Positions 51,666-52,745 of a DNA stretch of 59,670 bases are shown here, piece after piece. The notes beneath the pieces are model-generated. The model saw only the letters and a program-made list of their open reading frames with translations, ran no database searches and was not told the origin of the DNA. Numbering within the stretch: the stretch's first letter is position 1; every line of letters starts with the position of its first letter. This stretch comes from Chromatiales bacterium (GTDB lineage: Bacteria > Pseudomonadota > Gammaproteobacteria > Thiohalomonadales > Thiohalomonadaceae). The stretch is from NCBI GenBank assembly GCA_029879245.1, contig JAOUQQ010000005.1, positions 1 to 59,670 of the forward strand, read 5' to 3'. A program made the translations under genes and the position numbers.

Positions 51666-52745
51666 TTATAACATCTCTTTCACTTGACCATGTTCCACGT
51701 GGAACACTTTACTTTCACTCCACCTCTCCGTCTCTATCAAGGACTGGTCTGGTGTTGATATAAAGATCTGAGAACCGACATCATGAAGTATATTAATAAA
51801 TAACTCGCGGTGAACTGGATCTAGCTCTGCAGCCAAATCATCAATAAGAAAGACAGGGCGTCGTCCCGTTAAATTAAAGAGATGAAGCGTCTGTGCCAAC
51901 CTAAGTGCAACAACAACCAGTTTCTGCTGTCCTCTAGAGAGAAGTTCCGAGGCCTTGCCATTGTTACTTCTGATTACAAGATCAGCACGGTGAGGTCCAA
52001 CCGTTGTGTATTTAAGCTTTAAATCACTCTCTAACGACGTTTCGAGTGCACTGGATAAGCTGTATCCACTCGGCCAGCCCTGTCTATATTGAAAGTTAAT
52101 CTCTACATCGGGTAGTAGGCGGGTGAGCAGATCATAAGTAAAGAGAGTAATTTCGTCGACAAATCGTCGTCTTAGCGCCGTTATTTCCTCTCCATACTGT
52201 GCAAGTTGACTGTTCCAATGGGAAAATTCAGCTCTGTCTTCATTTAACCGTAATAGGGCATTGCGTTGCTTAAGTACACGAAGGTAGTTGGATGAGTGAT
52301 AATGAAACGTGTGTTCCACGTGGAACAATGACCAATCGATAAAACTGCGCCTCTTTTCAGAACCCTCTATTAACAGTGAAATACTTTCAGGAGAGATTAT
52401 CTGAAGGGGTAGGAGTTGTGCGAGCTGCGATCGACGACTGAGGTCTACACCATCAAGCCGGGTTGTATGGTTCAGGTCTCTGCATCTACGTAGTCCAATC
52501 TTATGTAGTAAATCGTCCTCTGCAATCTCAGTAAATAATGTAAAACAGGGTGAGTCGTAGTGAATTAAAGAGGCAAACTTATTGGTACGGAATGAGCTCC
52601 CTGTAGCGAGATAGTGTATAGCTTCAATGAGGCTACTTTTACCTGACCCGTTGCTTCCTAGGATAAGGTTAAGGGAGGGTGAGGGATTAAATGAGGTTGA
52701 AGACAGATTTCTAAAATCTGTAACCTCAACCCGATTAAACTGCAT
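51666..52745 (-). CDS. recF: DNA replication and repair protein RecF
   Basis: RecF is an SMC-like ATPase that helps load RecA at gaps. The 359-residue protein has Walker [14 protein letters not shown], the signature [18 protein letters not shown], and Walker [12 protein letters not shown]. It follows dnaN by 6 bp. Two parS-like palindromes are embedded in its coding sequence, both translated as FHVEH (in [11 protein letters not shown] and [10 protein letters not shown]). Confidence 0.96.
51691..51706. promoter_or_regulatory. parS site 1 (ParB-binding centromere)
   Basis: TGTTCCACGTGGAACA is a perfect 16-bp palindrome identical to the chromosomal parS consensus of pseudomonads and relatives. 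It lies in the 3' end of recF, about 2.2 kb from the dnaN-dnaA gap. Confidence 0.9.
52312..52327. promoter_or_regulatory. parS site 2 (ParB-binding centromere)
   Basis: This is a second perfect copy of TGTTCCACGTGGAACA, 621 bp from the first, also within recF. Two copies this close to oriC fit the known clustering of parS. parA and parB are not in the window. Confidence 0.9.

Follow-up and report, generated by a model that had tools for sequence, protein, structure and literature searches.

The question raised by this locus is whether two copies of one 16-bp palindrome lying inside recF of a Chromatiales bacterium are centromere (parS) sites of its chromosome, and whether carrying them has shaped a conserved repair gene at the DNA level. 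We examined the window, that is the whole 59,670-nucleotide stretch of DNA analysed, together with the host's draft genome and recF genes from other bacteria.

Two palindromes in recF and their surroundings

Scanning the window with TGTTCCACGTGGAACA gave matches at 51691-51706 and 52312-52327, each with 0 mismatches and with a start-to-start spacing of 621 bp, and no third match in the window at ≤3 mismatches. At this threshold shuffled windows averaged 0.19 matches, with 2 reached in 1 of 100 shuffles. Across the draft genome (2,695,836 bases, 98.35% complete) there were no further copies within 2 mismatches, with the proviso that additional parS could be missing from a scan of an assembly in 197 contigs, and the reversed control pattern gave 0 matches. 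The genome-wide search proposed by the sequence-only reading therefore returned the two recF copies and not many random ones. The features of the region are as follows.

49232..51637, minus strand: gyrB (TIGR01059)
51666..52745, minus strand: recF, 359 aa, carrying both sites (TIGR00611, 340.7 bits; cut-off 172)
51691..51706, no strand assigned: putative parS site 2, a perfect palindrome translated as V-FHVEH; probable counterpart of P. aeruginosa parS2
52312..52327, no strand assigned: putative parS site 1, a perfect palindrome translated as L-FHVEH at RecF 141-145; probable counterpart of P. aeruginosa parS1
52752..53855, minus strand: dnaN (TIGR00663)
53856..54071, no strand assigned: dnaN-dnaA intergenic stretch with DnaA boxes, candidate part of oriC
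54072..55460, minus strand: dnaA, open reading frame as listed, with a putative start codon

In the recF frame, site 1 is read as TTG TTC CAC GTG GAA CAC (L-FHVEH) and site 2 as GTG TTC CAC GTG GAA CAT (V-FHVEH), which places FHVEH at residues 141-145 and 348-352, respectively, counted from the ATG, with the site 2 motif seven residues ahead of the RecF C-terminus. The earlier claim of two perfect palindromes in recF that are both translated as FHVEH is thus borne out by the exact matches, the frame and the TIGR00611 assignment. Both copies are perfect examples of the 16-bp palindrome of TGTTYCACGTGRAACA type that is the hallmark of chromosomal parS. The suggested match to the pseudomonad consensus holds for the letters, but the host itself is no pseudomonad, and its family in our genome set includes a genome titled Thiohalomonas denitrificans (whose L041 sequence is the same as L205).

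The gene order around the sites is rnpA-dnaA-dnaN-recF-gyrB. Perfect DnaA boxes are present at 53928 and 54006 and a one-mismatch box at 54052, all in the dnaN-dnaA stretch, with another perfect box at 55495 upstream of dnaA; DnaA boxes thus occur 1.6-2.3 kb from the palindromes, with the minimum of the cumulative GC skew falling at 50-52 kb. Boxes and skew together identify the neighbourhood of recF as the origin region, and the palindromes therefore have the near-oriC location typical of parS. Partner genes, for which the sequence-only reading had proposed a search, were both found: the parA and parB open reading frames are adjacent to each other elsewhere in the genome, behind an open reading frame that we take to be rsmG. 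The ParB has a profile match to TIGR00180 (E 5e-58) and the domains ParB_N, HTH_ParB and ParB_C, its solved relatives are ParB, Spo0J and Noc proteins, and the neighbouring ParA ATPase belongs to AAA_31 (Pfam).

Because sequence, place and partner genes agree, the two palindromes are almost certainly the parS sites of this chromosome, spelled out in the codons of recF, and from this agreement we infer ParB binding and a function in segregation in the host. ParB from the distant parA-parB pair would bind each palindrome, load as a clamp and spread over the origin region, and ParA would move the ParB-parS complex so that newly copied origins separate.

Elsewhere in the window, a perfect DnaA-box-like TTATCCACA is found at 6890-6898, far from dnaA, and DnaA-box matches at ≤1 mismatch number 23 against 10.5 expected. 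An AT-rich patch at 40001-42532 includes the lowest GC of the window (0.375 at 40001-42000) and has plus-strand open reading frames at 40315-40881, 40966-41931 and 42029-42532, the last of which has Sel1-like repeats as judged by eye. This patch was possibly acquired.

The counterpart in Pseudomonas aeruginosa

Published work on P. aeruginosa places parS1 and parS2 within recF (PMC5521831), and describes parS2 as a perfect palindrome and parS1 as having one mismatch (PMC4368675). As in that species, the host has two parS in recF near oriC, and its 16-mer is identical to P. aeruginosa parS2; at site 1, where P. aeruginosa parS1 differs by one terminal base, the host is perfect. Furthermore, in that species any single one of parS1-4 is enough for partitioning, the intragenic parS were mutated without altering the protein, and nearly all tested sites, once mutated, bound ParB 2- to 10-fold more weakly (PMC4368675). 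As listed there (Table 1, PMC4368675), the parS1 and parS2 mutations are synonymous in the recF frame, in VFHVEP and MFHVEH, respectively, so that parS1 would correspond to site 1 and parS2 to site 2. P. aeruginosa ParB is also described as binding the half-sites GTTCCAC and GTTTCAC (PMC10419367), and its binding to parS and spreading from there are reported for this species (PMC4368675, PMC10419367). P. aeruginosa further has parS3 and parS4, which are of high affinity and intergenic, and six weaker sites (PMC5521831, PMC4368675), whereas in the host genome only the two recF sites were found within 2 mismatches. A recF-embedded parS layout is therefore already described, and the host is a further case of it; the class-wide comparison presented below extends beyond that known layout.

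Conservation of the cores and of their codons

In a class survey of 274 genomes a RecF match was present in 225, and recF was read from 149 of these (150 sequences, the better-scoring ones). We added 14 further family sequences (family RecF match in 17 of 20 genomes) and, from a phylum survey with a match in 181 of 200 genomes, 31 further gammaproteobacterial and 30 non-gammaproteobacterial sequences. A named set of 80 loci, 73 after duplicate removal, was selected by means of peptide patterns containing the motif itself, and it was therefore used for codon choice only and not for motif frequency. Before counting we removed 15 duplicate sequences, along with L001 and L002, both repeats of the window's own recF.

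The exact core GTTNCACGTGNAAC was present in 128/150 class sequences at site 1 and 125/150 at site 2, with both cores in 114, one in 25 and none in 11, a class-wide frequency that may be overstated because the sequences read were the better-scoring ones, from 149 of 225 matched genomes. Counted per genome, both recF cores were found in 113/149, and when each family was represented by its first genome read (n=89) there were 68 with both sites, 17 with one and 4 with none. Among the further family sequences 13 of 14 had both cores and 1 had none, and in the further gammaproteobacterial sequences the numbers were 20 of 31 with both, 1 with one and 10 with none, while at either aligned place the exact core was present in 0/30 non-gammaproteobacterial RecF sequences. 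Low-GC3 recF genes (down to 0.23) still hold both cores. Across the whole survey, exactly two cores were counted in 160/274 genomes and none in 42; unusually many were seen in G117 (12) and G272 (8), compared with 2 in most.

Within the 149 read genomes recF holds 253 of the 315 cores, and in 91 of them the two in recF are the sole cores of the genome. These counts suggest that the entire recognisable centromere of many Gammaproteobacteria lies within a single gene, recF, of the replication-initiation operon, an arrangement that would tie segregation to that operon. The class-wide codon lock described below and the hold on RecF residues were not found reported in open-licence papers; a survey of parS sites from 2007 (Livny and others) may cover part of the class-wide pattern.

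The two 16-mers are identical in the host, as they might be if a mobile parS-like repeat had recently inserted into recF, or been copied there by gene conversion, to give the second copy. However, the residues flanking the two copies differ, and across many families both places can be aligned with no insertion, at a spacing of 609-651 bp (median 621 bp, class sequences with both cores). The family-wide alignment and constant spacing rule out a recent insertion, and of the alternatives weighed here we give this one the least credence, close to none.

A second explanation is that FHVEH is kept for RecF function alone, with the palindrome as a by-product of this peptide and codon bias. The motifs are indeed conserved as peptides, and at site 2 F and V are common to many non-gammaproteobacterial RecF sequences, which indicates part protein constraint. 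We therefore compared observed cores with expected ones, the latter summed from the probabilities given by the codon usage of each gene, with genomes treated as independent. Given FHV[E/K][H/Q/P/R/L], the core was kept in 161/163 sequences at site 1 against 5.1 expected, and in 159/165 at site 2 against 7.2. Likewise, in the named set the exact core accompanied the motif in 61/67 (site 1) and 67/73 (site 2), with 1.3 expected at each. In a synonymous-constraint scan of 217 RecF columns the top seven were all parS codons (z 10.5 to 15.9), the best other column reaching z 7.6 and the median being 1.2, so that the columns for H, V and E are set apart from the remaining 210. The codon preceding F ended in G in 163/163 sequences at site 1 (69.8 expected) and 165/165 at site 2 (102.8 expected). 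The absence of Ile ahead of Phe in exact cores was set aside as evidence, since the core demands G by construction. All 230 (site 1) and 238 (site 2) FHV[E/K] sequences, survey and named, have H, Q, P, R or L as the next residue; at site 2 of L193 (family f171) FHVE is followed by Pro, where the other 225 exact site 2 cores have H, Q or R.

Furthermore, the E. coli-type RecF (L190, with 85.7% identity to E. coli recF) reads CFHNEA and MFTVEK, with the parS core absent, which argues that RecF as such does not require the peptide; in the genome of L190 the sole ParB match is on the second contig. Codon test and column scan rule out protein-only conservation as the sole cause, and we regard that explanation as very improbable. 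Both sites are thus conserved as DNA beyond coding need, and the proposal that recF has been shaped at this level is upheld, as relatives that keep the motif do not vary its synonymous bases freely; none of the three outcomes that the sequence-only reading had named as refuting it was seen.

Taken as comparative evidence, this shows that a DNA signal, and not the protein, has apparently fixed the wording of two stretches of recF across much of the class. Selection for ParB binding would fix the codons H-CAC, V-GTG and E-GAA (or K-AAA), and would force a G-ending codon before F and a C-starting codon after E/K; because both parS are written in recF codons, they would dictate RecF amino acids at two places. 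This would be a clean case of a DNA-binding site, and not protein function, fixing conserved residues of a repair protein across much of a class, and RecF residues that look conserved at the parS places should accordingly tolerate replacement.

Departures from the pattern and possible drift of the paired sites

Most near-complete ParB-less gammaproteobacterial genomes that were read have lost the recF sites: the exact recF core is absent in the four genomes G252 and G389 (both f169), G173 and G321, and the ParB-less genomes with cores, G131 and G215, are drafts. These losses bear on a third explanation, in which the palindromes are bound not by ParB but by another regulator of the dnaA-dnaN-recF-gyrB operon. 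Operators located within genes do occur, which lends this idea some plausibility. An effect on the operon is also plausible, as ParB excess in P. aeruginosa is reported to lower expression of the genes neighbouring parS1-4 (PMC5521831), though that effect comes from ParB itself. Against another regulator, the letters are those of a ParB site tested in P. aeruginosa (PMC4368675), and the four ParB-less genomes named above lack the exact recF core. There is thus very little chance that a protein other than ParB accounts for the palindromes.

Three other genomes of f172, the family of G321, have ParB-like matches, perhaps on plasmids, and no exact recF core. The f172 sequence L188 reads ATGTTCCGCGTGGAACAG, one base off the core and likely a relic of it. 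In f173, which is taken to be Vibrio-like, and in Vibrio sinus (L221), RecF retains FHVEH at site 2, as in the host, whereas site 1 is lost and a synonymous change from CAC to CAT breaks the site 2 core; exact parS cores lie elsewhere in the genome, and ParB is present in f173. Several other genomes speak against a simple rule in which loss of ParB and loss of the core go together. G192, G053 and G058 have ParB and 2, 3 and 3 cores, respectively, none of them in recF, and G258, G049 and G188 match ParB yet lack an exact core anywhere in the genome. Conversely, G131 has no ParB match and one exact recF core, and G215 (77% completeness) has no ParB match and two.

The Gammaproteobacteria probably acquired the arrangement early, and most of their lineages with ParB have retained it. 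We consider it likely that the recF pair is an ancient, class-wide gammaproteobacterial centromere, often the sole recognisable one, which has overwritten RecF at two places and drifts together with ParB specificity. On this account FHV[E/K][H/Q/P/R] after a G-ending codon would be a peptide dictated by the palindrome, Glu-to-Lys replacements would track the half-site type (TTC/GAA or TTT/AAA), and where ParB is lost or parS has moved, RecF would be freed and the motif would decay. This suggests that RecF sequence alone gives a hint of whether a lineage still uses the recF centromere.

The same off-consensus change was seen at both recF sites in L130 (G024), L105 (G166), L207, L237, L242 and L268. 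In the four named genomes L207, L237, L242 and L268 the central CG is TG at both sites; G024 has GTTCCACATGGAAC twice, which replaces Val with Met, and G166 has GTTCCACGTAGAAC twice, while its genus-mate G016 is canonical. These paired changes suggest drift of the ParB target, and sites that drift together suggest that ParB specificity and RecF sequence change jointly.

Lys in place of Glu occurs mostly with Phe-TTT. With survey and named sequences pooled, site 1 gave 138 TTC-E, 69 TTT-E, 22 TTT-K and 1 TTC-K (Fisher p 4e-9), and site 2 gave 132, 74, 27 and 5, respectively (Fisher p 3e-7). TTT with E is common, which means that symmetry of the palindrome is not strict. On a tree built without the motif there were at least 15 E/K changes at site 1 and at least 24 at site 2, too many for the coupling to the Phe codon to be put down to a handful of inherited events. 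The E/K labels are barely clustered on this tree (15 changes where shuffling gives a mean of 20.1, and 24 where it gives 27.8), and shared descent therefore inflates the Fisher test, which is itself uncorrected for kinship, only a little. Median GC3 for TTC and TTT was 0.54 and 0.53 at site 1, so that base composition does not account for the Phe codon there, and 0.57 and 0.48 at site 2, where composition may explain it in part. Finally, the half-site type, judged by Phe codon, agrees between the two sites of a genome beyond expectation (p 1e-8), in line with a genome-wide preference of ParB.
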